Shown here: piece by piece, positions 6,795 through 18,138 of the stretch
Position numbering within the stretch: the stretch's first letter is position 1
How the letters are laid out: every line of letters begins with the position of its first letter
Virus record (IMG/VR): IMGVR_UViG_3300048929_000427
Span: 1 to 20,472 of that record
Length of the DNA: 20,472 bases
Reading direction: 5' to 3' (one strand)
Source of the DNA: a virus
Made by a program: the position numbers and the translations under genes
The notes under the pieces: generated by a model
The model's database searches: none
The model's input: only the letters and a program-made list of their open reading frames with translations
What the model was told of the DNA's origin: nothing

Positions 6795-7307
6795 CTACTT
6801 GTGAAATGCGAGGTAGGCGATCAGTCCGCGAAGCTTCTCGACGCTGTCGTTGACGCCGCCAAGAGCGACATTGCATCCGTTGCAGAGCAGCGATCTAACG
6901 CATTTGCCGCACGACTTCTGGCCGGGGCAGCACGCGTGGTCGTGATCGACGTCGAGGCTGCGCCTATCGGGCCCGCTAGAGCAGGTCGGATTTGCGCATA
7001 CGCCGCCTTGCTGTTCGAGCATGGCGATGTAATCCGCTTCGGTGATCCGATACTTGCTCTTCAGATAGTCGTTGCGGCGCTGTGATTTTCGATACCCTGA
7101 CCCGCGCGGGGAAGCCGCGTACTGGCGCTGCCGATCCTTGATGCGGTCACTATTGGCTTGGTAGTAACTTTTCTGATACAGAGAGCTGCACGCTTTACAC
7201 CAGTGCTGCAGGCCATCGTGCGTGCTGCGGTTCTTGCCGAACTGATCTAGCGATTTTTCGGTCTTACACTTTGTGCATGCCTTCAGTGGATGTCTACACT
7301 TTCCCAA
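6795..7307 (-). CDS. endonuclease VII-type HNH endonuclease (probable homing or mobile gene)
   Basis: The C-terminal part has the recombination endonuclease VII signature: DVDHDH, then a zinc-binding set and VRSLLCNGCNVALGG, with helix SVEKLRGLIAYL at the end. CANPTC provides the first zinc pair. The N-terminus has its own zinc ribbon (CTKC near the start, CKAC about 27 residues later), common in mobile HNH genes, followed by a basic helical linker. Such enzymes cleave branched or double-stranded DNA; freestanding copies inside phage structural operons often act as homing endonucleases. The start is uncertain. ATG at 7352 falls in the loop of the upstream hairpin, so TTG at 7307 is preferred, though it lacks a clear ribosome site; the conserved part begins just after CTG at 7286. 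It sits between the major tail protein and the chaperones, a common insertion point. Confidence 0.8.
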   Translation of the reverse strand: MGKCRHPLKACTKCKTEKSLDQFGKNRSTHDGLQHWCKACSSLYQKSYYQANSDRIKDRQRQYAASPRGSGYRKSQRRNDYLKSKYRITEADYIAMLEQQGGVCANPTCSSGPDRRSLDVDHDHACCPGQKSCGKCVRSLLCNGCNVALGGVNDSVEKLRGLIAYLAFHK

Positions 7308-7328
7308 TAGGGCTGCAGGGCTGTGGAG

Positions 7329-7369
7329 CCCGCGGTGGTGGACACAGCCCATAGGCCCACCACCGCGGG
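7329..7369 (-). terminator. hairpin after the major tail protein gene
   Basis: Perfect 13-bp GC-rich arms (7329-7341 and 7357-7369, CCCGCGGTGGTGG with its complement) surround a 15-nt loop. The hairpin starts 34 nt past the major tail protein stop codon. Neither strand has a U-run after the stem, as is often the case for hairpins in high-GC actinobacteria and their phages. It probably limits transcription or protects the 3' end of the abundant tail tube mRNA. Confidence 0.7.
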
Positions 7370-9049: not shown

Positions 9050-9473
9050 CGGCTACATACCGGAAGTCGACCTCGTAGAGGCCGATCATCTGGTAAATCT
9101 TTTTGGGCTGTCCATCGTCGACGTATTTCTGCTTACGGAAGTACTCCGTGTTGTAGACATTGTCCGCATATACGTCGCCGGTCGAAATGGTTACCCGCTG
9201 CTGGCCAGTGAATCGGCCGGCGAGATATTCCATTCGCCGGTGCACCAGGGTACAGAAAGTCGAAGCCTTAGCCTCGGTCTCATGAAAGACGTGGATCGAA
9301 TACTTTCCGTTGTCGACAAGCCCATCCGCATTGCCGCCGCCGCGGGCTACCATGATGAATGGCAGCACTGAATTGGTGGGCTTCTCGGTTCGGCACTCCC
9401 CCAGTGGGGAGAGCCATACCTGCAGGACTTCCAGCCCATTCGGCGGCGCCCAGTTGGTCATTTCGACGGTCAT
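9042..9473 (-). CDS. tail terminator protein
   Basis: This 143-residue protein starts at ATG 9473 in an ATGA overlap with the upstream gene's stop. It comes after adaptor, stopper and gp10-like genes and before the tail tube gene, the standard place for tail terminators (lambda gpU-like), which cap the growing tail tube and join it to the head. The sequence is a mixed alpha/beta fold of the right size: NGLEVLQVWLSPLGECRTEKP at the start, a central PFIMVARGGGNADG, HVFHETEAKASTFCTLVHRRM helix, and beta-rich VDFRYVAAS at the end. The central PFI.V.R.GG motif followed by ..D...I.V..F is typical of actinophage tail terminators. The stop converges with the plus-strand gene. Confidence 0.82.
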   Translation of the reverse strand: MTVEMTNWAPPNGLEVLQVWLSPLGECRTEKPTNSVLPFIMVARGGGNADGLVDNGKYSIHVFHETEAKASTFCTLVHRRMEYLAGRFTGQQRVTISTGDVYADNVYNTEYFRKQKYVDDGQPKKIYQMIGLYEVDFRYVAAS

Positions 9474-9943
9474 CGGACGTTCGGTTTCCTCTCCATTGCC
9501 GCAACTGTGCGGCGCATAGGCGCGAATTCTGGAGTGGGTGTTTTCGGGCCCCATGGAGAACGCGATCCCGGCTTATCTTCATTTGTGCCGTATTCGATCC
9601 AGTGGGCCTTTGGGTCGTCGTTATAAACGAGGCCGACCATGACGCCGCCCTTTCGCAGGGCGCGTTTAATCCATAGCCGCTGGCCGAGCGAAAGCTCTTT
9701 CTTCTTGATGTTCCGCCGATAACTCCCCGTTGCGTACGGGTGCGGCCTTCCTGTTTCCTGGGCAAGGACGCCCTCCATTGAGGAGTCCCAGATGAATACC
9801 CAGGTGTCATGAATATCGTCGATGAAACGATGCAAGGCCCGCTTGATATCGCGGTTGCGACTCAGCCCGTCGAAGATCGTGTCCTCGACGTCCTTGTAGC
9901 GGACCTCTACATGCGAAGTGACCCAGGTTTCGGTTCTGGCCAC
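9470..9943 (-). CDS. HK97 gp10-like head-tail protein
   Basis: The 157-residue protein starts at GTG 9943, one nt after the TGA of the upstream gene. The C-terminal half shows the HK97 gp10/tail-component pattern: HPYATGSYRRNI, GGVMVGLVYNDDPKAHWIEYGT, then a Pro-rich loop and FAPMRRTVAAM. In this family an 'A.(Y/W).E(Y/F)GT' strand is followed by 'PF.RPA'-like residues before a final helix; here the versions are AHWIEYGT and PEFAPMRRTV. These proteins bridge the connector and tail completion. Neighbours on both sides (stopper upstream, tail terminator downstream) support the call. It overlaps the next start by 4 nt. Confidence 0.85.
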   Translation of the reverse strand: MARTETWVTSHVEVRYKDVEDTIFDGLSRNRDIKRALHRFIDDIHDTWVFIWDSSMEGVLAQETGRPHPYATGSYRRNIKKKELSLGQRLWIKRALRKGGVMVGLVYNDDPKAHWIEYGTNEDKPGSRSPWGPKTPTPEFAPMRRTVAAMERKPNVR

Positions 9944-9944
9944 A

Positions 9945-10301
9945 TCAGCCGTCCATCCGCTGGCAGATGATCGTCACCTTGAACGGCCGGCCGCGCGGAC
10001 CCGGAAACACCCTTGGCCCGCCGACGATCTGGTAGGTGATGCCGTCGACCTCGACCTCGTCGTTCGACTTGGCTGCCATCACCGTGGCCGTCGGCGGCGC
10101 GGTGCACCTCCACGGGTCGGTAACGATGTCGCCCACGTTGATCGCCGGGGCGTCGATCTCCTCCTTGGCGGTCATCGGACGAAAGCGGCACCCGCGGACG
10201 GGTACCTTTACGCGGACAGTCTCGGGATTGCCCAGGATGTCGCGGTTGTTCAAATCCTCGGTGACAGTGACGAAGTAGACCGTCTGACTGCCTAGCCTCA
10301 T
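9945..10301 (-). CDS. head closure protein (head-to-tail stopper)
   Basis: This 118-residue protein begins at ATG 10301 in an ATGA overlap with the adaptor gene. Its size, beta-rich content and position directly after the adaptor fit the stopper (HK97 gp7 / SPP1 gp16-like) that seals the portal channel after packaging. The N-terminus MRLGSQTVYFVTVTEDLNNRD, a middle region VGDIVTDPWRCTAPPTATVMAA, and the end GITYQIVGGPRVFPGPRGRPF read as small beta-barrel strands, including the 'I.Y.V.G.P..F..P.G.P.....' pattern typical of these proteins in actinophages. No enzymatic motif is seen. Confidence 0.82.
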   Translation of the reverse strand: MRLGSQTVYFVTVTEDLNNRDILGNPETVRVKVPVRGCRFRPMTAKEEIDAPAINVGDIVTDPWRCTAPPTATVMAAKSNDEVEVDGITYQIVGGPRVFPGPRGRPFKVTIICQRMDG

Positions 10302-10858
10302 GCGACCGGAATCAATCGATACTGGTACAGGACGGACTCTTGCATCGGTTGCTTGGCGATACCCCAGCTACGGTCTGTGATACCAGACGCGCGCAGGGAG
10401 ACATCGTCGACCTCGATGCCAGTGAGCTGGCCACTGAGACCCGTGCCGGCGCTGGCCACGGTGCGGTCGATGAGCGCCAGCACCTCCTCGCGGAAGGCCA
10501 TTGCCTCGGCCGCGGCGAAGCCATGCTCCACCGTGATCACCACGCGCCCACGCCAGAAACCGTCCTTGCGGTACAGAATTCCGGGTTCGTTGGTGTACTG
10601 CTCGATCTCGTCGACCGGAACGGTCACGCCATCGTCGGTGCACGAGGTGATGGAATCGACCTTCAGCGTCGGGATGACGATGTAAGGCCATCCGCCGCCG
10701 TCGACCACGAAGGTGTCCGACCGGATCGGCGAAACGTGCCAGCCGCAATACCGGCGGACCTTGTCGAGGGATGTGGCCAGTAGGCGCGCGTTCTCGACAG
10801 GGTCGATCAGCTCGGGGTTGTAGGCCACGACGTCGGCAAGTTCAAGCTCTTCAGCCAT
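10298..10858 (-). CDS. head-to-tail adaptor (connector) protein
   Basis: The 186-residue protein starts at ATG 10858 after a GGGGGG ribosome site. The helical N-terminus (ELADVVAYNPELIDPVENARLLATSLDKVRRYCGWHVSP) followed by a strand region (YIVIPTLKVDSITSC, EIEQYTNEPGILYRKDGFWRGRVVITVEHGF) and a long helix (AMAFREEVLALIDRTVAS) is the gp6/gp15-like adaptor pattern, in which a dodecamer binds below the portal. The motif VRRYCGWHV near residue 35-43 and the '...V.V.YTHGY/EHGF' strand (here ITVEHGF) are family hallmarks. It is the first gene of the resumed connector module after the glycan cassette, preceded by the AT-hook protein and overlapping the stopper gene by 4 nt. Confidence 0.88.
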   Translation of the reverse strand: MAEELELADVVAYNPELIDPVENARLLATSLDKVRRYCGWHVSPIRSDTFVVDGGGWPYIVIPTLKVDSITSCTDDGVTVPVDEIEQYTNEPGILYRKDGFWRGRVVITVEHGFAAAEAMAFREEVLALIDRTVASAGTGLSGQLTGIEVDDVSLRASGITDRSWGIAKQPMQESVLYQYRLIPVA

Positions 10859-10875: not shown

Positions 10876-11148
10876 TTAGTCGGTGGTTTCCTTGCGGGGA
10901 CGGCCGCGGCCACGCTTGACGGGCTCTGCGGCGGTCTCCAGAGGCGGCTCGCCCACGGCGGTCTCAGTCGGTGCCGCGGCAACCTTCGTTTCCGGCGCCG
11001 GCGCGGAGACGGCCTTCTCGAAGTCCTGCAATGAAGCCCGCACCTGGCGGGCCCTATCCTCGGCGTCGACGGCCTCGTAGACCGCCAACTCCTGCAAGAG
11101 GGCTGCGCGGTAATCGGCCGCGAAGTCCCTCACGTTCTGGTCGGACAT
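10876..11148 (-). CDS. small AT-hook-tailed protein
   Basis: This 90-residue protein starts at ATG 11148 (MSDQNVRDFAADYRAALL), with AGGAG 5 nt upstream inside the end of the glycosyltransferase gene; an earlier start would overlap that gene's coding region. Residues 1-48 are an amphipathic, acidic helix pair. An Ala/Pro/Glu linker follows. The last 13 residues (KRGRGRPRKETTD) contain GRGRPRK, the core of an AT-hook DNA minor-groove motif. Small proteins with similar KRGRGRPRK tails are found in many actinophage head modules just before the adaptor; their role is unclear, with packaged-DNA or head binding as possibilities. The DNA-binding idea is inference from the motif only. Confidence 0.78.
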   Translation of the reverse strand: MSDQNVRDFAADYRAALLQELAVYEAVDAEDRARQVRASLQDFEKAVSAPAPETKVAAAPTETAVGEPPLETAAEPVKRGRGRPRKETTD

Positions 11149-11155
11149 GTTTCTC

Positions 11156-11851
11156 CTACCGAGGGTCACTCTCGACCCTCTCGAAATCGTTGATCATGGG
11201 GCTGTAGATGTCCTTCAGCCGCTTTCTGTCGTCAGTTCTCAGGTGCGTGCGGTGCTCCAGGCGGACATCCCACAAAGGCTCAGCGGGAAGCGCTTTCGGG
11301 CCGGCCAGGAACTCGCGCTTGCCGTCGACCGGAGCGGTGACAACGAAGTGCGCCTGCTCGATCCGAATGCCGGGGATGGCGCGGAACAGGCACCGCAGCG
11401 GATGCTGGGCGTAGCTGGAGGCTTCGCGCTGCCAAAGCATCACCTCGGCGGCGTGCGCGTCGGTGGCCGCCAGTCGAGACTTGGTGTCCGCGGGTACGTC
11501 GGAGATGATCTCATCGGCGTCAACCCGGAAAAACCAGTCGCCCGGCTGCGCAAACGTCATGCCGAGCTGGAACATGAAGTCCCGCTTGGCGACTTCGCCA
11601 CCCCACTCGTCCCCCCACCAGACCTTGCGCGACTGATGGATGGTGCAACCGATGCCGGCGCCCGCGGCCGTGCGCAGGATCGCGTCAGCCTGGTCGGTGC
11701 CGCTCGCCGGCTGCATCATGGCACCCGGGAAGCCCGCATACGGGCCGTCAACGGCGATGATGTGGTCGGCCAGTCGCGCGGTAGCGGCAACGCACTCGGC
11801 GAGCCAGGTTGGGCTCTCCTCGTACCAGTTCAGCAGGGCTATGACAGCCAT
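11156..11851 (-). CDS. glycosyltransferase, GT-A fold (third of cassette)
   Basis: The 231-residue protein starts at ATG 11851 (MAVIALLNWYEESPTWLAEC), 13 nt inside the upstream gene, with GGAGG 7 nt upstream. The opening strand-helix, AVDGPYAGFPG at ~33-43 and the DADE at ~111-114 (GDWFFRVDADEIISDVP) are the fold of family 2-like glycosyltransferases, where the DXD motif binds the metal and the nucleotide sugar. The motif WGGEVAKRDFMFQLG (about 83-97) and the C-terminal HRTHLR stretch fit the same group, found in mycobacterial and gordonia phages. The sugar donor and acceptor cannot be read from sequence. Given the dehydrogenase upstream, an activated uronic sugar is one candidate donor. It is the last gene of the cassette before the connector genes. 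Confidence 0.85.
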   Translation of the reverse strand: MAVIALLNWYEESPTWLAECVAATARLADHIIAVDGPYAGFPGAMMQPASGTDQADAILRTAAGAGIGCTIHQSRKVWWGDEWGGEVAKRDFMFQLGMTFAQPGDWFFRVDADEIISDVPADTKSRLAATDAHAAEVMLWQREASSYAQHPLRCLFRAIPGIRIEQAHFVVTAPVDGKREFLAGPKALPAEPLWDVRLEHRTHLRTDDRKRLKDIYSPMINDFERVESDPR

Positions 11852-12018
11852 TCGGGCGCCTCCGCCGAGCGCAATGCACACTCGATGTCGTAACTGCCGT
11901 CCTCGCAGGCGGTGAACGTAAACTCAGGAACGCCGTGGCGGCCAATCTCGATAGCGGTGATGCGATTGATCCAGACCGGCTTTTCGCCTGGGCCCGGACA
12001 TAGCCAGAATCCGCTCAC
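11839..12018 (-). CDS. small cassette protein of unknown function (59 aa)
   Basis: The most likely start is GTG 12018, in a GTGA overlap with the upstream TGA, reading (M)SGFWLCPGPGEKPVWINR; a GTG-extended version from 12048 is possible but would overlap more. GAGG lies 5 nt upstream. The middle is a plausible beta-sheet (WINRITAIEIGRHGVPEFTFTACEDGSYDIECAL), and it ends EAPEWLS, 13 nt into the next glycosyltransferase gene. I do not recognise the family. Translational coupling to both neighbours suggests it serves the glycan cassette or was inherited with it. Confidence 0.7.
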   Translation of the reverse strand: MSGFWLCPGPGEKPVWINRITAIEIGRHGVPEFTFTACEDGSYDIECALRSAEAPEWLS

Positions 12019-12206
12019 GCTGGCCTCACCCTCCCTACGGGTACGCACACCGTCTGGTGGGGCGCCAAACGCTCAGTGCCGCTGCCGTAGTCGGCCTCGG
12101 GATCGATGGCCACGGTGCAACGCGCCCAGCCGTGGTCGATCCGCTCGACGTGACCACGAAGGTCTTCGCCATCGAAGTCGACAATGACGTCGTCGCCGGG
12201 ATTCAT
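12015..12206 (-). CDS. small beta-rich cassette protein of unknown function (63 aa)
   Basis: It starts at ATG 12206 in an ATGA overlap with the dehydrogenase stop, and its TGA overlaps the next start by 4 nt. Reading MNPGDDVIVDFDGEDLRGHV, it has alternating hydrophobic strands (VIVDF, LRGHVERID, ARCTVAID, TVCVPVGRVRP) typical of a small SH3- or KOW-like barrel, a fold used for binding in many small proteins. No catalytic residues are evident. Function unknown; its tight coupling to the sugar dehydrogenase is the only clue. Confidence 0.75.
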   Translation of the reverse strand: MNPGDDVIVDFDGEDLRGHVERIDHGWARCTVAIDPEADYGSGTERLAPHQTVCVPVGRVRPA

Positions 12207-13426
12207 CGTCGCCCCAATCGCTTAACGGTCACGCCATCCCGATCCGGAATGACGCCGAAGGGGTCGACCACAACCGAGCCCTCGGGGAACTCCAGCGAGC
12301 GATACCGCTCATTGTTGGTGGCCAAGAAGTACACAGCCTTGTACATGTAATCCACATCGTTGACGTGCAGGAACTGCTCGCCAGACTGGCGGAGGATATC
12401 GGCCATCAGCATTGCCGCGCTGCCGGTTTCGATGTCGGTCTCGGGCTTGAAGGCCGTTCCGAGCACGATGAGTGGCAGATCATGCTTCTCGGCGTAGTAG
12501 GAGGCGACCTCGGCGTGCCAGGCCTCATACTCCTGGCGGGCGTGCATCAGCGCGTCCCAGATGTTGAAGGACATGTCAACCTCTTCGGCGAGCCAGGACA
12601 GCGCGATATTGTCGCGCGGGTGGCAGCCGCCACCGTCGGACATGCCGGCATCCATGTAGCGGCTCGACAGTAGCCGGCGGTCGGCGAGATCCCAGGCTGC
12701 CTTCATGTCGTCGAAATTCATGCCCATGCGCTCGCACATCTCGCCCCAGCAGTTGGCGATGACCGTCTTGGCGGTGATCCACGTGTTGTACGAGACCTTG
12801 ATTCCCTCGGCCGTCGTCACGCCGGTGCGGATGCACGGGGCATCATTGATCGTGGCGTAGAACTCCTCCAGGAGATCCGCGGCCTCGTCGCTGCAGACGC
12901 CGATCAGGTTGAACTCCGGGTGTAGGTAGTCCTGCAGGACGGTGCCCATCGCGATGAACTGCGGGGTGTAGACATAGTCGACGAAATCGTTGAGTAGCGG
13001 GGCGATCTCGCGGGAGAACGTGCCGGGCAGGCAGGTGGAGATGACCGCGACAGTCTTGCGCACGCCCAGCCGCTCGCACGCCGCGGCGACGGCGGCCACG
13101 CCCTCCTTCAGAAAGGTGTAGTCGAAATCCTCTCTGGCGTCGGGCATGATCGTGGCGCCCTCAAATTCCGGCGCGTGCGGGGTCTGGATGGCGACGAAGA
13201 TGATGTCCGAGTCGGCAACTACCTCGTCGACGGTGTCGTGCCACTGGATGTCATGATTGTCGAGCAGCGGCTGCAGCCCCTCCTCGCGGAACGGGATGAA
13301 GCGCGACTCCAGGTAAGTCTTGACGTCAGGATTGGCGTCGGTTCCGCAGACGGTGTGGCCGCGGCGTTCGATGGCTAGTGCGACCGGCAAGCCGAGCTTG
13401 CCCAGTCCGACATGACCAATTCTCAA
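12203..13426 (-). CDS. UDP-glucose/GDP-mannose 6-dehydrogenase family protein
   Basis: This 407-residue protein begins at TTG 13426 (MRIGHVGLGKLGLPVALAIE) with AAGGGGAA upstream. It has all landmarks of the family that oxidises nucleotide-sugar C6 alcohols to uronic acids with NAD: the GxGxxG Rossmann motif at 4-12; STCLPGT at 130-136; the Lys210/Asn214 pair in EGIKVSYNTWITAK; the catalytic Cys268 in GGGCHPRDNIAL; and the C-terminal GTAFKPETDIETGSAAM (323-339), where the usual Arg is absent. Length matches the usual ~400-450. It is cytoplasmic; its product would be UDP-glucuronate or a related activated acid sugar, used by the adjacent glycosyltransferases. The exact substrate cannot be read. 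It is unusual in a phage structural operon. The neighbouring start overlaps its stop (ATGA). Confidence 0.93.
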   Translation of the reverse strand: MRIGHVGLGKLGLPVALAIERRGHTVCGTDANPDVKTYLESRFIPFREEGLQPLLDNHDIQWHDTVDEVVADSDIIFVAIQTPHAPEFEGATIMPDAREDFDYTFLKEGVAAVAAACERLGVRKTVAVISTCLPGTFSREIAPLLNDFVDYVYTPQFIAMGTVLQDYLHPEFNLIGVCSDEAADLLEEFYATINDAPCIRTGVTTAEGIKVSYNTWITAKTVIANCWGEMCERMGMNFDDMKAAWDLADRRLLSSRYMDAGMSDGGGCHPRDNIALSWLAEEVDMSFNIWDALMHARQEYEAWHAEVASYYAEKHDLPLIVLGTAFKPETDIETGSAAMLMADILRQSGEQFLHVNDVDYMYKAVYFLATNNERYRSLEFPEGSVVVDPFGVIPDRDGVTVKRLGRR

Positions 13427-13444
13427 AGTGTTCCCCTTTGGTGG

Positions 13445-14002
13445 TTAGTCGAGTAGTGCTGCGATGTTTCGCTCGGATGTGTTGCCGCCGTTGCAGTGCA
13501 CTGCGGCAAATGCTTCAGCGAGCGCCTCTGGCGCGTTGAAATGGCCGTCCTTAAACGAGTAGCGGGCCAACTCGTCGTAGTCGACGGCGTCCGTCCATGT
13601 GAGATCGATCAGCGCGCGCGACGGTGCGTCACCGCGATTAGCGTCGAGGATGTGCGCGGCCTCGTGGTAGGTGACGAACTCCATTGGCGTGCAGGACACG
13701 GTCCGCGGGTGGAAGTGACTCGCCTCGTCGTTGGCCATGGACTTCTCGAACGCGGCGCGATCCGCCAGAAATGTCGAGTTGAAGGTGATTACCCCACCGC
13801 CGGCCTGTGCGTAGATGTCATTGAGTGGCTCGGAGTCGATCTTGACGTCCCGCAACTCCGGGTATTTCACGGCGAGTTTGTCTATGGCGCCGTCAATCTC
13901 GGCGGAGAGCGTCGGGTCGGCGCCCTGACTGAGCTTGGTCTCGCCACATGCGGCAAGGGTGGCAACGATAGCCGCGGCGGAGGCGAGATATTTGATGAGA
14001 AT
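13445..14002 (-). CDS. predicted lipoprotein with HEAAH zinc-metallopeptidase motif (ATT start likely)
   Basis: Conventional starts give only 141 residues from GTG 13870, but the frame stays open upstream and encodes a textbook lipoprotein signal: reading from ATT 14002, MLIKYLASAAAIVATLAACG, with lipobox L-A-A-C at 16-19. A GGAGA ribosome site lies 8 nt before this ATT; no ATG, GTG or TTG is available in the interval. Total length is 185 residues. The mature part holds HEAAH at ~113-117 (FVTYHEAAHILDANRG), the HExxH zinc motif, and a downstream EALAEAFAAVHC where a Glu could be the third ligand, as in gluzincins. If exported and lipidated it would act on the outer face of the host membrane. 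It sits between a glycosyltransferase and the dehydrogenase. The motif and lipobox are seen; the start codon and the activity are inferred. Confidence 0.78.
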   Translation of the reverse strand: MLIKYLASAAAIVATLAACGETKLSQGADPTLSAEIDGAIDKLAVKYPELRDVKIDSEPLNDIYAQAGGGVITFNSTFLADRAAFEKSMANDEASHFHPRTVSCTPMEFVTYHEAAHILDANRGDAPSRALIDLTWTDAVDYDELARYSFKDGHFNAPEALAEAFAAVHCNGGNTSERNIAALLD

Positions 14003-14013
14003 GGGCTGTTCTC

Positions 14014-14559
14014 CTAGCGCCCGTATGTCAAGCTGTTCCCCGGGCTGAAGAAGTAGTGGTAGAGCGTCTGATCGATGTAATGCTCGGTCTTTGGCGAGAC
14101 CTGGTCGGCCCAGCGCTTGTCCTCCCCATAGCCGCCGTTAAAACGTCCCTGTCGGGCGATCTCGGTGCGAATCGGGTTGAGGTGGCTGACATTCCGGTAG
14201 TAACCGTTAGCGTCGTCGGACCACTCGTCGTACTCAAGCGAGTGATAGGTGGGCTTCTGGCGCGCTCCGTCGATGTAGAGCTGAAGCTGGAAGCCGATAT
14301 AGTCGACACCGTCGAGAAGCGGGTAGATGGCGTCGACGTAGTTGCCGGCGACCATGTCGTCATCGTCGATGAAGTTGAAGTACTCCCCCGAGGCGTTGTC
14401 CAGGCACCACTGCCGTTTCTCGGCGACGGTTCCCGGCATGTTGCAGGTCATCAGCTCGATGTCCGAGCGAGCCTGAATCTGTGGAGTGAGGGTGTTCATG
14501 AGCCGGGCGTACTCGTGGCGGCGCTCAGGGACTGTGAGGACCGCTATCGTCCACTTCAC
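14014..14559 (-). CDS. glycosyltransferase, GT-A fold (second of cassette)
   Basis: The best start is GTG 14559 in a GTGA overlap with the upstream gene, giving (M)KWTIAVLTVPERRHEYARL and 181 residues; AGGAGG lies 7 nt upstream. A longer frame from further up would begin inside the preceding gene and has no fitting protein start. It shows the GT-A pattern: an initial AVLTVPERRHEYARLMNTL strand-helix, NASGEYFNFIDDDDMVAGNY with the acidic metal-binding motif (DDDD at ~65-68), and the GGYGEDKRWADQV segment (GED, a likely catalytic base region). The end is YFFSPGNSLTYGR. The N-terminal halves of GT2-type enzymes bind the nucleotide sugar. Acceptor unknown. Confidence 0.86.
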   Translation of the reverse strand: MKWTIAVLTVPERRHEYARLMNTLTPQIQARSDIELMTCNMPGTVAEKRQWCLDNASGEYFNFIDDDDMVAGNYVDAIYPLLDGVDYIGFQLQLYIDGARQKPTYHSLEYDEWSDDANGYYRNVSHLNPIRTEIARQGRFNGGYGEDKRWADQVSPKTEHYIDQTLYHYFFSPGNSLTYGR

Positions 14560-15248
14560 TGCATGACCTCCTGCAGTTTCGCCGCGGTGTCGCGAATGAG
14601 CGCCTGCACTTCGGCGCCGTAGTACAGCTCGTCCGGCCGGCACTCCTGGTGGCGGGCCAGGCGCTCGCTGGTGTTCTGATCGATCTCCGCCTTGCCCACG
14701 ATGTAGTGCATGTGCTCGGTGTAGATGTCGATCTCCAGGTGGCGGCCAATGAGTTTGGAGACGTCGTTAAGGAACGTGTCGTTGAAATCGCTGACGAACA
14801 GCGGCGGGAAAAGGAACCCGGCGGTCTCGACCCACTTGCGATGGATGAAGCCGTGCGTCCCAAAGTTGTTGCCGTCCTGGTATCCGTCGCGCCCGAAGGC
14901 GAACAGGATCTTGTCCGGGTAGGCATCGAACGTCTCGCGCACAACGTCGTCCCAGCCGGGCGTGCGAAACACGATGTCGTCGCCGCAGTGCATGATGATG
15001 TCCGCGCGCGACGCGTCGAAGCACAGATTCCACATCGCCGAGAGGTTCACGAGATTATCGCGCTCTCGGGGGCCACGGACCTGCACCCATTTGATGTCGA
15101 TCTGCAGGTCGTCGTATGAATGGTCATCAGAGTCGATGTACGTCACGATCCGGATGTTTTCCGGGTGCGACGCCGTGGCGTTGATGGAATCAACCAAGCG
15201 GCTCAACTGATTCGGCCGCTGGCGGGTTGGGAGGAGGAGGTCAATCAA
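14556..15248 (-). CDS. glycosyltransferase, GT-A fold (first of cassette)
   Basis: This 230-residue protein is best started at TTG 15248 ((M)IDLLLPTRQRPNQLSRL), overlapping the end of the 44-residue gene; AAGGCGG lies 8-9 nt upstream. Starting further upstream would add an Arg/Ser-rich run that is out-of-frame translation of that small gene. 'IDLLLPTRxRPxxLxRL' is the standard opening of phage and bacterial GT2-like enzymes. GDD at 89-91 (IIMHCGDDIVFRTPGWD) is the metal-binding motif, and NNFGTHGFIHRKWVETAGFLFPPLFVSDF (about 128-155) matches the acceptor-side segment, with Asp154 a possible catalytic base. It opens the cassette next to the divergent plus-strand genes. Donor and acceptor cannot be determined from sequence. 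Confidence 0.87.
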   Translation of the reverse strand: MIDLLLPTRQRPNQLSRLVDSINATASHPENIRIVTYIDSDDHSYDDLQIDIKWVQVRGPRERDNLVNLSAMWNLCFDASRADIIMHCGDDIVFRTPGWDDVVRETFDAYPDKILFAFGRDGYQDGNNFGTHGFIHRKWVETAGFLFPPLFVSDFNDTFLNDVSKLIGRHLEIDIYTEHMHYIVGKAEIDQNTSERLARHQECRPDELYYGAEVQALIRDTAAKLQEVMQ

Positions 15249-15375
15249 GGACGGGGACCGCCTTGATGCGCATTTCAGCCTGCTCTTCAGCGGGGCGGTC
15301 AGCCATCTCCATGCAGAGGCGCTGGAAGCGCTCGGCGACGGCAACGGGCTCCCCGCGGTCGGTGAGGACATGCAT
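15241..15375 (-). CDS. 44-residue cassette leader protein, unknown function
   Basis: The frame begins ATG 15375, preceded by GGAGG 5 nt upstream, the strongest ribosome site in the cassette, and encodes MHVLTDRGEPVAVAERFQRL, with an acidic middle (MADRPAEEQAEMRIK) and the end AVPVLD. It overlaps the first glycosyltransferase by 8 nt. No known motif is evident. The ribosome site and coupling overlap show it is very likely translated; it may mainly serve to start translation of the glycosyltransferase. It is too short to identify by eye. Confidence 0.65.
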   Translation of the reverse strand: MHVLTDRGEPVAVAERFQRLCMEMADRPAEEQAEMRIKAVPVLD

Positions 15376-15473: not shown

Positions 15474-15827
15474 ATGACCGTTTTGCAGGACTTGATCGAT
15501 TCGCGCGACCTTCTGATCCGGGGTGGGTACACCGCCCACTATCTCAGGATGGACGGGCGCCACTGCGCGGTCGGCGCGGTGCTGGATGCCACCGGCAACG
15601 AGGACATCCACGCCTTCATCTACAACACGATGAACGAGCGGGGCGCCGCGGTGATTCGTGCGCTGAATGCCACCCTCCCCGAGGATTTCCAGCCACATCT
15701 CAATTCTCAGCACCTGGGGGACATCGCGTCTCGGGTGGCTGGATACAACAACCGGAGGGGCGAGGAGGCGGTGATCGCAATGTTCAATTCCGCCATCGCC
15801 CGCGAAGAGACGCTCGTCTCGGCCTAA
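15474..15827 (+). CDS. first of three tandem paralogs (DUF6197-like small protein)
   Basis: The 117-residue protein starts at ATG 15474 with AGGAGAT 4 nt upstream, and reads MTVLQDLIDSRDLLIRGGY. It shares with its two neighbours a pattern: MT(V/L)LQDL..SRDL(L/I)(I/V), then W/Y...LR, (H/R)CA(V/M)GAVLD(A/T)TGNE, Y..MNERG.A, a loop (L/I)P, and finally YNN..GE....(L/M)F..AI. The early part, with a helix and a 'CA(V/L)GA' core, resembles DUF6197-type proteins of actinobacteria and their phages, which have no known activity. No catalytic set or signal peptide is seen. It is a likely cytoplasmic protein transcribed opposite to the late operon. Confidence 0.85.
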   Translation: MTVLQDLIDSRDLLIRGGYTAHYLRMDGRHCAVGAVLDATGNEDIHAFIYNTMNERGAAVIRALNATLPEDFQPHLNSQHLGDIASRVAGYNNRRGEEAVIAMFNSAIAREETLVSA

Positions 15828-15852: not shown

Positions 15853-16251
15853 ATGACCGTTTTGCAAGATCTGATCGACAGCCGCGACCTCATCATTCGC
15901 GACGGGTGGTCGCTCGGTCGGCTGCGCGGCGCGAACGGAAGCCATTGCGCCATGGGCGCTGTGCTCGATACCACCGGCAACGAGCACATCAACCACTCGC
16001 TCGCATACGACACGATGAACGAACGCGGCCAAGCGGTGACTGCCGCGCTCTACGAGGCAATTCCCGCGGAGAAGCGGGCCTCGATCATGGCCGAATGGGG
16101 CAATGAGATCGCAGAACTCCCCTCGGATTGCGTCCGAGGGTGCATCGTGGGCGACTACAACAACTACTTCGGCGAGTCGACGGTGATCGAGATGTTCAAC
16201 GTCGCCATCGCCCAACAGCGGGCCGCCGCCTCCACTTCATACAAGCGCTGA
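15853..16251 (+). CDS. second tandem paralog (DUF6197-like)
   Basis: The 132-residue protein begins at ATG 15853, 25 nt after the first gene, with AAGGAGAT 6 nt upstream. Its first 45 nt are nearly identical to the first gene's start, showing a fairly recent duplication, yet the middle (RASIMAEWGNEIAELPSDCVRGCIVG) is longer and differs. It keeps the family markers GSHCAMGAVLDTTGNE, YDTMNERGQA and GDYNNYFGE, then MFNVAI. The C-terminus (QQRAAASTSYKR) is unlike the others. Two extra Cys residues (DCVRGC) are specific to this copy. Function unknown. Confidence 0.85.
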   Translation: MTVLQDLIDSRDLIIRDGWSLGRLRGANGSHCAMGAVLDTTGNEHINHSLAYDTMNERGQAVTAALYEAIPAEKRASIMAEWGNEIAELPSDCVRGCIVGDYNNYFGESTVIEMFNVAIAQQRAAASTSYKR

Positions 16252-16265
16252 AGGAGATATCGAAC

Positions 16266-16652
16266 ATGACACTCTTGCAGGATCTGGTCGCCAGTCGCGA
16301 TCTGCTCGTCAATGATGGATGGGTGGCGCACAAGTTGCGCGACTCCGAAACGGGCGCGCGTTGCGCCGTCGGTGCGGTGCTCGACGCCACGGGGAATGAA
16401 GACCTCGACGCGTTCACCTACGGAGAGATGAACGAGCGCGGCGTCGCGGCGGTGGACGCCCTCTATAACCTCCTACCGGTGGGGTGGAAGGGGTATCGCG
16501 AAGCATCGTTGACCACGAAGGCGATCTGCATCGCCGACTACAACAACGGACGGGGCGAGCAGCCCACCGTTAAGCTCTTCGAGAACGCCATCGACGCCCT
16601 CGCGCCGGCAGCCGTGGGCTGCGGCGTTCGGCAAATAGGCGTGTTCCGTTGA
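16266..16652 (+). CDS. third tandem paralog (DUF6197-like)
   Basis: The 128-residue protein starts at ATG 16266, 14 nt after the second stop, with AAGGAGATAT 7 nt upstream. It reads MTLLQDLVASRDLLVNDGW, then ARCAVGAVLDATGNED, YGEMNERGVAA, ADYNNGRGEQ and LFENAI, so it is clearly of the same family but more diverged. The last ~15 residues (PAAVGCGVRQIGVFR) have no counterpart in the first two, and may be an extension after a shifted stop. It is the last gene before the bidirectional terminator. Function unknown. Confidence 0.84.
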   Translation: MTLLQDLVASRDLLVNDGWVAHKLRDSETGARCAVGAVLDATGNEDLDAFTYGEMNERGVAAVDALYNLLPVGWKGYREASLTTKAICIADYNNGRGEQPTVKLFENAIDALAPAAVGCGVRQIGVFR

Positions 16653-16689
16653 CAACGGAACGGGTGAATTAACCGAACAGTGACCACCG

Positions 16690-16725
16690 AAAGGCCGAGC
16701 ACCCGCTATATGGTGCTCGGCCTTT
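16690..16725. terminator. bidirectional terminator between capsid and plus-strand block
   Basis: Perfect 14-bp arms (16690-16703 and 16712-16725, AAAGGCCGAGCACC and its complement) enclose an 8-nt loop. The stem ends in TTT on both strands, so it can serve the three plus-strand genes (38 nt after their last stop) and the capsid gene (34 nt after its stop) from the other side. Confidence 0.85.
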
Positions 16726-16758
16726 CATGGTTACTGAGATGCGCTTGCGCGCAACGCC

Positions 16759-18138
16759 TTACGCGAAGGTCGGCGCGGTGAGAGCGGTACCGGTGATTTC
16801 GGCGATGCTCTCCGAGTGACGCTCGGCGGTGAACGCCAAGAAGCCGTAGACCTGCAGCAGGATCGTCAGGTTGTCGGCCCGCGTCTGGTCGAAGGTCCGG
16901 GTACGGATACCCGATTCGAACAGGAGCAGATCGCTCGCGCGCAGGATGTGGACGACATCCTGGTTGGTGCCGGCGCCGAGGTTGGTCGGCAGCAGCGGGT
17001 CGGTGTACACGGGCAGGCCGTGCAGGTTGCCCACGTAGCCGGCCGTGATGACGCCGCCGTGCGTACCGATCAGCGGGGTGCTCGCGTTGGACGAGCCCGA
17101 GATCAGCGGCACGTCGTTGGCGGTGAACACCGCCTGCAGCTGAGACCAGCGCCGCGGGTGCATGACGATGACCTCGGCCGGCAGGGTGCGCTGAGTACCC
17201 ACGCGCTGGATCGCGTCAGCGATCTTCGCGTAGAGGGTCTTGGCCTTCGACAGCTCGTTACCGGCGTCGGTCGCGGTGATCGTGGTGATGCCAGAGGCAT
17301 TCCGGACGCCCTTGACCTGGCCCGAGGAGTTCGAGCCGTTGATGACCTGCAGGTTGAGCTTGTTCGCGTAATCCGCCGAGAGATCCCGGAAGATGATCTC
17401 GTCGAAGTTCAGCGGCGACTGCTCCAGCGCCTGGATCGACAGCGCCTGGGCACCGGCGATGGTCTTGACCTGCGCCGAGACGAAGGTGTCGGTCAGATCG
17501 ACCTCAGTGATCGCGGTGTTGTCCGCGGTCTGAATGCCGGTCGAGGTGCCGGTCGCGATCTTCGGGATCGAGATCGAGTCCGTGCCGCCGGGCAGCGGCT
17601 CAGACGGCGCCAGGTTGGCGTAGACCCGACCCGGGCGGGACAGCTCGATGAAGCGGTCCATCAGCCATACGGGCGGAACCAGGTAGCCGCCGGTGCCGTC
17701 GGTCCGGTTCAGGGCGCGGACCTCATTGGCGTGCGCATTCAGACGTGCCTGCACCTGGTCGTCACCCATGTTGAAGGCGCGGGCTAGCATGTCCTGGACG
17801 TAGGACTTGCCGTTGCCCTTCTCGTAGGTGCGGTGCTCGTTGGTGACGGTCACGGTCGTGGTAGGACGGGTCACGTTGCGGACCTCCTCGGTGTGGCGGC
17901 CGGCGCGCTCGGCCTCGGCTTCCAGATCGGTGATCTGGCTAGACAGGTCGTCGACCCGGTCCTGCTTGGCCTTGACGCTGGCGGTAGCCGCGCGGAAGGC
18001 GGCGTCCTCGTCTTCGGTCAGGTCGGCGTCGCCGCGGGCCTCGACAGCGTCGAGAACGGCGTCACGGGCGGTGATTTCGGCGTCGATCTCGGCCAGGAGG
18101 GTGGCGCGAGCTTCGATCAGCTTCTGCAAACGATCCAC
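16759..18138 (-). CDS. HK97-fold major capsid protein
   Basis: This 459-residue protein starts at GTG 18138 ((M)DRLQKLIEARATLLAEID) with AAGGAGAT 5-7 nt upstream. Residues ~1-90 are a charged coiled coil, the delta-domain type scaffold that HK97-like capsids carry at the N-terminus and lose by protease cleavage; the protease is the next gene upstream. The body shows the family pattern: DGTGGYLVPPVWL (N-arm/start of mature fold), SISIPKI, TFVSAQVKTIAGAQALSIQALEQSP (E-loop into spine helix), FRDLSADYANKLNLQVING, VIVMHPRRWSQLQAV, GLPVYTDPLLPTN, and a final AFTAERHSESIAEITGTAL. It forms the icosahedral shell. A perfect hairpin follows, so its transcript may end here. As the most abundant protein it is the first candidate acceptor for glycosylation by the cassette enzymes, which is inference. 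Confidence 0.96.
   Translation of the reverse strand: MDRLQKLIEARATLLAEIDAEITARDAVLDAVEARGDADLTEDEDAAFRAATASVKAKQDRVDDLSSQITDLEAEAERAGRHTEEVRNVTRPTTTVTVTNEHRTYEKGNGKSYVQDMLARAFNMGDDQVQARLNAHANEVRALNRTDGTGGYLVPPVWLMDRFIELSRPGRVYANLAPSEPLPGGTDSISIPKIATGTSTGIQTADNTAITEVDLTDTFVSAQVKTIAGAQALSIQALEQSPLNFDEIIFRDLSADYANKLNLQVINGSNSSGQVKGVRNASGITTITATDAGNELSKAKTLYAKIADAIQRVGTQRTLPAEVIVMHPRRWSQLQAVFTANDVPLISGSSNASTPLIGTHGGVITAGYVGNLHGLPVYTDPLLPTNLGAGTNQDVVHILRASDLLLFESGIRTRTFDQTRADNLTILLQVYGFLAFTAERHSESIAEITGTALTAPTFA

Follow-up and report, generated by a model that had tools for sequence, protein, structure and literature searches.

A cassette of eight minus-strand genes in a 20,472-nucleotide (nt) stretch of viral DNA (IMG/VR record IMGVR_UViG_3300048929_000427, positions 1 to 20,472; here called the window) includes a complete nucleoside diphosphate (NDP)-sugar 6-dehydrogenase, UGD, together with its recurrent partner, the GT-A glycosyltransferase GT1. 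Judged by its sequence, the window is part of the genome of a mycobacteriophage resembling Cluster J (Omegavirus), and this phage is known only from environmental DNA. From 15375 to 11156, the cassette reads s44, GT1, GT2, zinc (Zn) peptidase, UGD, sm63, sm59, GT3. An insertion of 8–10 genes, including glycosyltransferases and a Zn peptidase, has been described between the capsid and head-tail connector genes of Cluster J phages (Pope et al. 2013, PMC3706429). The place of the cassette, its transferases, its peptidase and the general idea are already known and not new, and the split between capsid and adaptor that a previous, sequence-only reading of this DNA pointed out is that published insertion, and so no surprise. 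What appears to be new is the complete dehydrogenase with its recurrent GT1 pairing, its altered active site, and its truncated remnant in cultured relatives. The gene content itself is as good as certain: all eight genes named in the sequence-only reading (three GT-A transferases, a dehydrogenase, a Zn peptidase and three small proteins) were confirmed.

What kind of enzyme is UGD? Encoded at 12203..13426 on the minus strand from a TTG start, the full-length predicted protein matches PF03721 (2.1e-19) and PF00984 (3.3e-14) above their cut-offs, and it scores below the cut-off for PF03720 (13.9 versus 30) and TIGR03026 (153.8 versus 189.8 bits). Its AlphaFold model (predicted local distance difference test [pLDDT] 95.6) has the guanosine diphosphate (GDP)-mannose dehydrogenase 1mfz as its best Foldseek match (template modelling score [TM] 0.87), and a profile search, like the fold search, places GDP-mannose dehydrogenase first (182 bits), with uridine diphosphate (UDP)-glucose dehydrogenases next. 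UGD has the three-domain fold, the GxGxxG motif, and the Cys, Lys, Asn, Asp and Thr residues in common with AlgD (1mfz) and the UDP-glucose 6-dehydrogenases (3vtf, 2q3e and BceC 2y0e), but it differs from them in Lys10, Phe/Gln at 141, Met at 145, the lack of Arg327, and an Arg beside the catalytic motif. In a set of 229 NDP-sugar dehydrogenases, 18 residues are invariant, including Glu141, and others are conserved at 98–99%, including Tyr10 (98%) and Arg327 (99%); a role in catalysing the hydrolysis of the thioester is reported for Tyr10 (PMC4794789). Crystals of the human E161Q enzyme contain a thiohemiacetal (PMC3184952).

Across 114 homologues of UGD, the catalytic residues C268, K210, N214, D272 and T131 and the diphosphate-binding K327 are invariant, and GxGxxG, Ser130-Thr131, Glu207 and Gly-Gly-x-Cys268 are also kept. 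Lys takes the place of Tyr10 in 112 of the 114, Met160 the place of Glu145 in 112, and Arg271 the place of Lys beside the catalytic motif in 113. Glu141 is replaced by Phe/Gln and others (Q156 in the window), and Arg327 is absent, there being no Arg in the FKPETDIETGS motif. Scans for the dehydrogenase yielded at least 80 viral loci and 29 loci in bacterial genomes. The viral scan patterns included DGGGCHP, so part of the motif was selected for; members found without it, by genome scan and tblastn, show the same residue changes except in L019 and L020. The former (Pseudomonas phage Y5) lacks the clade pattern and is an ordinary AlgD-like enzyme, and the latter departs from the pattern at the Met position only; another row, L024, is truncated. 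In a phylogenetic tree, the clade stands apart from the canonical enzymes on a long branch with 100/100 support, and the predicted UGD is a member of this phage-rich, divergent group.

The likely substrate is harder to read from the residues. UDP-glucose, GDP-mannose and UDP-ManNAc dehydrogenases are distinguished by Leu, His or Arg at index 359 and by Lys, Arg or Glu at index 215 (PMC4794789). At indices 359 and 215, UGD has Ile217 and Ile129, with Ile in 110 and 111 of the 114 homologues, and it matches none of the three known substrate groups. The Foldseek list also contains BceC Y10K (2y0d) and human E161Q with its trapped thiohemiacetal (3khu), which are laboratory mutants at the very positions altered in the clade. 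Whether UGD would yield a true uronate is an even call. The sequence-only reading called the enzyme uronate-forming, which is unproven: the TIGR03026 score is below cut-off, residues tied to finishing the reaction are lost, and the nearest solved relative is a GDP-mannose dehydrogenase.

A second dehydrogenase occurs in 11 loci of the clade (~8 once near-copies are discounted). These second enzymes are mostly short and have a canonical PEFLTEAN motif, so the two dehydrogenases of one locus are probably not redundant. In L044, L045, L055, L057, L062, L072, L089 and L107, the second gene lies 2–8 genes from the clade dehydrogenase, and all the second enzymes except that of L107 are 263–347 amino acids (aa) long, lack the C-terminal domain, and have Phe for Tyr10. 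In Synechococcus phage Bellamy (L017) and Pelagibacter phage HTVC008M (L020), the clade dehydrogenase is accompanied by NadE-like, carbamoyltransferase and methyltransferase genes, with glycosyltransferases also nearby in Bellamy; this gene content suggests amidated or carbamoylated sugars in these marine phages. A search for a nucleotide-sugar epimerase elsewhere in the phage found none. A host origin of UGD was considered and rejected, as the four other NDP-sugar dehydrogenases of Mycolicibacterium sp. S2-37 are canonical and only 23–27% identical to the clade member L117.

GT1 (14556..15248, minus strand, TTG start) matches phrog_14945, and its AlphaFold model (pLDDT 94.3) matches TarP, RmlT and K4 chondroitin polymerase in Foldseek. 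The acidic motifs GDD/DDDD/DAD can be read in the transferases, which have PHROG matches and only sub-threshold Pfam matches. By its predicted fold and acidic nucleotide-sugar/metal motif, GT1 is a GT-A, family 2-like enzyme. Its linkage to the dehydrogenase was counted in viral loci that had been dereplicated and did not belong to the J group, with only close homologues (E<1e-20) scored. Among the matches listed, a GT1 homologue is near the dehydrogenase in 22 of 56 such loci and directly upstream of it in 10 of 56, with a 4-nt overlap in 7 of those 10. GT1 fills adjacent slots 11 times, versus 3.5 expected from its frequency in the same loci (P about 8e-4, an approximate value that assumes independent loci). 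UGD and GT1 form a recurrent pair. The sequence-only reading considered the combination of dehydrogenase and transferases unusual, whereas the pair recurs among uncultured phages. In one locus, GT1 and GT2 are fused as a single protein (L035:3274-4680). Omega gp16 has been likened to chondroitin synthase (PMC3706429), and K4 chondroitin polymerase (2z86) has two GT-A domains that work with a glucuronic acid donor. The GT1 model resembles the latter (TMq 0.58), but RmlT and TarP match with better E-values. As the match found by fold is of a generic GT-A kind, neither a specific relation to the polymerase nor a chondroitin-synthase-like polymer is claimed.

The dehydrogenase is also found near head genes in phages unrelated to Cluster J. 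Neighbourhoods were read in a chosen set of ~17 contigs, from which no frequency is claimed. In L009/L034, GT1 and the dehydrogenase are followed by an SU10-type adaptor gene (PF24175, 3.6e-27), and in L051 such an adaptor comes directly after the dehydrogenase. A phrog_442 adaptor directly follows the dehydrogenase in L041 and is just downstream in L038, and the major head protein gene is 4–5 genes upstream in L029, L030, L036 and L037. A megablast of L009 against phages gave no match. That unrelated phages, too, have the dehydrogenase next to a capsid or adaptor gene, and mostly together with GT1, argues against random cargo. Gene order around adaptor genes, which the sequence-only reading put forward as a check, shows the same place in relatives and proximity to head genes in unrelated phages.

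Cultured Cluster J phages carry only part of UGD. Among the matches listed, at least 49 Mycobacterium phage records match residues ~295–403 alone, as an open reading frame (ORF) of ~100 aa at the same locus (phrog_6896), which in Redno2 is gp21. The NAD-binding domain (PF03721) is missing from the complete Redno2, WXIN and Courthouse genomes as well as the L011 record, and no remnant of it was found elsewhere in the isolates; both sister contigs, L008/L009 and LR756502 do have it. In a tree of the C-terminal domain, six stand-alone proteins form one group (100/99) nested among full-length enzymes, beside the J-like enzymes of the window, L023 and L101 (forks 93/87 and 90/74). Since the stand-alone proteins group together within the full-length tree, the simplest reading is that one truncation produced them. 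They lack the FKPET motif and its diphosphate-binding lysine (Lys327), so they are predicted not to bind UDP- or GDP-sugars. Their ratios of nonsynonymous to synonymous substitution (0.06 for Courthouse–LittleE, 0.14 for Courthouse–Ariel and 0.28 for Redno2–Courthouse) indicate purifying selection. On this evidence, the stand-alone domains are kept for some role other than catalysis.

The phage to which the window belongs can be placed with its neighbors. Megablast of the window matched 49 Mycobacterium phage records, none spanning most of it, and its capsid, protease, portal, connector, adaptor and major tail proteins are ~39–75% identical to those of Cluster J (Omegavirus) phages. Two longer IMG/VR contigs, of 117,568 and 71,918 base pairs, contain the same species. 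L006, the stretch compared from a sister phage, is 98.8–99.0% identical to the window, with all cassette genes intact except sm59, which is replaced by another ORF. A related prophage (L101) was found in Mycolicibacterium sp. S2-37. In every Cluster J relative examined the cassette has this position, and so it does in L101 and contig L023, both of which have a full-length dehydrogenase; this conserved position in the head cluster supports the earlier description of a sugar-building cassette. As expected for Cluster J, the block between capsid and connector is rich in glycosyltransferases, with a GT3-type gene last, and GT3 is kept in all 49 matching mycobacteriophage records at 58–63% identity. 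The window and the Cluster J insertion (Omega, LittleE, Thibault and Redno2) agree in place and in the genes on either side, and both have a GT3-family gene, a Zn peptidase, several GT-A transferases and small conserved ORFs. For Omega, transfected DNA is reported not to have given plaques (PMC3706429). It differs from the isolates in having the full-length dehydrogenase and its GT1 partner, where they have only the dehydrogenase C-terminal domain, and from Redno2 in lacking the latter's kinase and methyltransferase. Indeed, profile scans of the window's cassette proteins gave no methyltransferase or Ser/Thr kinase match, apart from a weak phrog_2675 match to GT1. Elsewhere in the window, an Endonuclease VII-family gene (6795-7352, minus strand; PF02945, 1.5e-19), just 3' of the major tail protein gene, resembles free-standing homing endonucleases reported in Cluster J.

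The cassette genes, all on the minus strand, represent the families phrog_14945, phrog_14775, phrog_7153, phrog_9148, phrog_1693 and phrog_7009. The first, s44 (15241..15375), is a small ORF of 44 aa with a GGAGG-type ribosome-binding site; it overlaps GT1 by 8 nt and is 100% identical in L006, beyond which no homologue was found. GT2 (14014..14559; GT-A glycosyltransferase, phrog_14775, GTG start, DDDD motif) overlaps GT1 by 4 nt and is 33% identical to LittleE gp15. The conserved small protein sm63 (12015..12206; phrog_1693) overlaps UGD by 4 nt and is 71% identical in WXIN and 63% in L011, in both of which its homologue adjoins the stand-alone C-domain gene. The variable small ORF sm59 (11839..12018) overlaps sm63 by 4 nt and GT3 by 13 nt. 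It occupies a swap slot between phrog_1693 and GT3, which in L006 contains an unrelated ORF of ~74 aa (9410-9630). Last is GT3 (11156..11851; GT-A glycosyltransferase, phrog_7009, E 7.5e-104), followed by the head-tail connector (10876..11148, minus strand; phrog_6852, 35–45% identical to annotated connectors) and the head-tail adaptor (10298..10858, minus strand; 49–58% identical to its annotated or syntenic counterparts in Redno2, WXIN and Courthouse). The overlaps of 4–13 nt described previously hold for 5 of the 7 junctions; the peptidase is separated from both its neighbors by short gaps.

A position between capsid and adaptor had also been described, and it is correct in that the cassette lies in the head gene cluster, but the capsid gene does not adjoin it and the connector intervenes between GT3 and the adaptor. 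The major capsid protein gene (16759..18138, minus strand; 52–73% identical to the proteins annotated as major head protein in Redno2, WXIN and Courthouse) is directly followed by a terminator-like stem-loop (16684..16726, minus strand; minimum free energy -42.9 kcal/mol for 16670-16745, z -7.7). Next come three tandem DUF6197 paralogues (15474-15827, 15853-16251 and 16266-16652, plus strand; 43–51% mutual identity), opposite in strand to the structural genes; PF19698 is above cut-off for two of the three. Because the hairpin and the opposite-strand genes intervene, the cassette is probably not simply co-transcribed with the capsid gene, despite lying inside the head gene cluster. No sigma-70 promoters were found within the cassette. 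The hairpin may be more than an ordinary terminator. It has no T-run, and an invariant 11-nt sequence, CATATAGCGGG, lies across its loop in the window, WXIN (L003 3162-3214), Courthouse (L004 3104-3152), LittleE (L136 2756-2812) and Ariel. The stems vary: across 4 sequences, 6 of the 10 pairs have changed on both sides. Each genome has one exact or near-exact copy of the CATATAGCGGG hairpin, after the capsid gene; Redno2, Courthouse, WXIN and L101 likewise have hairpins behind the capsid gene, and an Rfam search gave no match.

The Zn peptidase (13445..14002, minus strand; phrog_7153, E 2.7e-42) is 37–40% identical to Cluster J zinc-finger proteases and is of the Anthrax-LF-like/M48-like type. 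Its earlier description as a lipoprotein peptidase agrees with its HEAAH motif and its lipoprotein signal (ILIKYLASAAAIVATLAAC-G; lipobox LAAC-G), but the reading frame has no ATG, GTG or TTG start to go with that signal. Behind an AGGAG, one start alone fits, an inferred ATT at 14000-14002 (minus strand), which L006 has as well. The peptidase was not found by tblastn in L101, L023 or LittleE, so the dehydrogenase module does not need it.

What might the cassette do? We lean slightly towards the view that it decorates the virion of this Cluster J-like phage, with a virion protein as the sugar acceptor. We infer the substrate, the product, the glycan and the virion target alike. The cassette would act late, through its place in the head gene cluster. 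UGD would act on a nucleotide-sugar of the host, either UDP-glucose or GDP-mannose, and oxidise it at C6; GT1, as the conserved partner, would take the product, a step that we consider likely. GT2 and GT3 would attach sugars to a virion protein or lengthen those already there. The likeliest acceptor is a head or head-tail protein encoded in the same cluster, and the lipoprotein-type Zn peptidase would be a companion of the cassette. There is a precedent in Che8, Corndog and Myrna, where virion glycosylation depends on glycosyltransferases (Freeman et al. 2023, as reported in PMC12363180). As in the window, these transferases are encoded by mycobacteriophages, and in that account their targets are capsid and tail-tube proteins. 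Relative to what is reported there, the window adds a sugar-donor enzyme. Several observations weigh against decoration of the virion. The active site of UGD departs from known uronate-forming enzymes. The full-length dehydrogenase is absent from Cluster J isolates, and the lineage can therefore do without its product. The dehydrogenase has relatives in bacterial genomes (Pelagibacteraceae and others), possibly in surface-sugar loci, which would allow a role at the host surface. Lastly, we know of no glycan or modified virion protein in Cluster J.

A host-surface role seems rather unlikely. Here the cassette would modify the host envelope, for instance its cell-wall arabinogalactan, lipoglycans or glycolipids, either in the lysogen or towards the end of infection, and so prevent superinfection or change how receptors are recognised. 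It would suit the predicted export of the lipoprotein-type peptidase, the presence of the GT1/dehydrogenase family on bacterial chromosomes, the J-like copy in the S2-37 prophage, and the fold neighbors of GT1, TarP and RmlT, both of which act on wall teichoic acid. However, the recurrence of the dehydrogenase by capsid and adaptor genes in unrelated phages better suits a virion target, and profile scans of the cassette revealed no membrane-anchored polyprenyl-sugar transferase, flippase or acyltransferase. The genes could also be cargo ("morons") tolerated at a permissive point after the capsid gene with no specific link to the particle. The contents do differ among relatives, with a methyltransferase, a kinase, different transferases and an IS110-type insertion (PMC3706429 and the relatives read), and the small ORF slot differs even between phages that are 98.8% identical. 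We nonetheless regard cargo as improbable, given that GT3 is universal among the matching records, the truncated C-domain is under purifying selection, and glycosyltransferases are a constant theme of this site that unrelated phages repeat. DNA is the substrate of some phage glycosyltransferases, and the weak phrog_2675 match of GT1 might hint at hypermodified bases rather than protein as the target; this is very improbable, as no base-modifying synthase was seen among the window proteins scanned and the genes are placed with head genes, not with nucleotide metabolism.

A separate question concerns the chemistry, and here the alternative is compatible with virion decoration. The dehydrogenase may stop at, or divert, the C6 aldehyde or thioester stage, giving another oxidised sugar and a glycan without hexuronate. 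This is possible, if somewhat doubtful. It draws on the near-fixed Lys10, Met160 and Arg271, the fully supported split of the clade, the thioester role of Tyr10 and invariance of Glu141 (PMC4794789), and the thiohemiacetal in E161Q (PMC3184952). Against this, Cys268, Lys210, Asn214, Asp272, Thr131 and Lys327 are retained, and hydrolysis may have passed to other residues. A broader version, which we consider unlikely, is that GT1 and the altered dehydrogenase (Lys10, no Glu141, no Arg327) form a module in many unrelated phage lineages. Its non-uronate product, e.g. a C6-aldehyde sugar or a sugar that a different acceptor frees from the acyl-enzyme, would be attached to the head or neck, and the Cluster J C-domain would have been retained for a different purpose, probably regulation or binding.

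If decoration of the virion is the right explanation, a puzzle dating from 2013, namely why Cluster J phages carry transferases at the capsid–connector site, would become a testable pathway with a named donor enzyme and a paired transferase. The implications would extend beyond Cluster J, as the same GT1–dehydrogenase pair lies near head genes in unrelated phages. They would also extend to annotation: a large clade is labelled UDP-glucose dehydrogenase, and its chemistry cannot be read off that label. Finally, the remnant left by domain loss is under selection in laboratory phages, where it can be deleted and its role tested.

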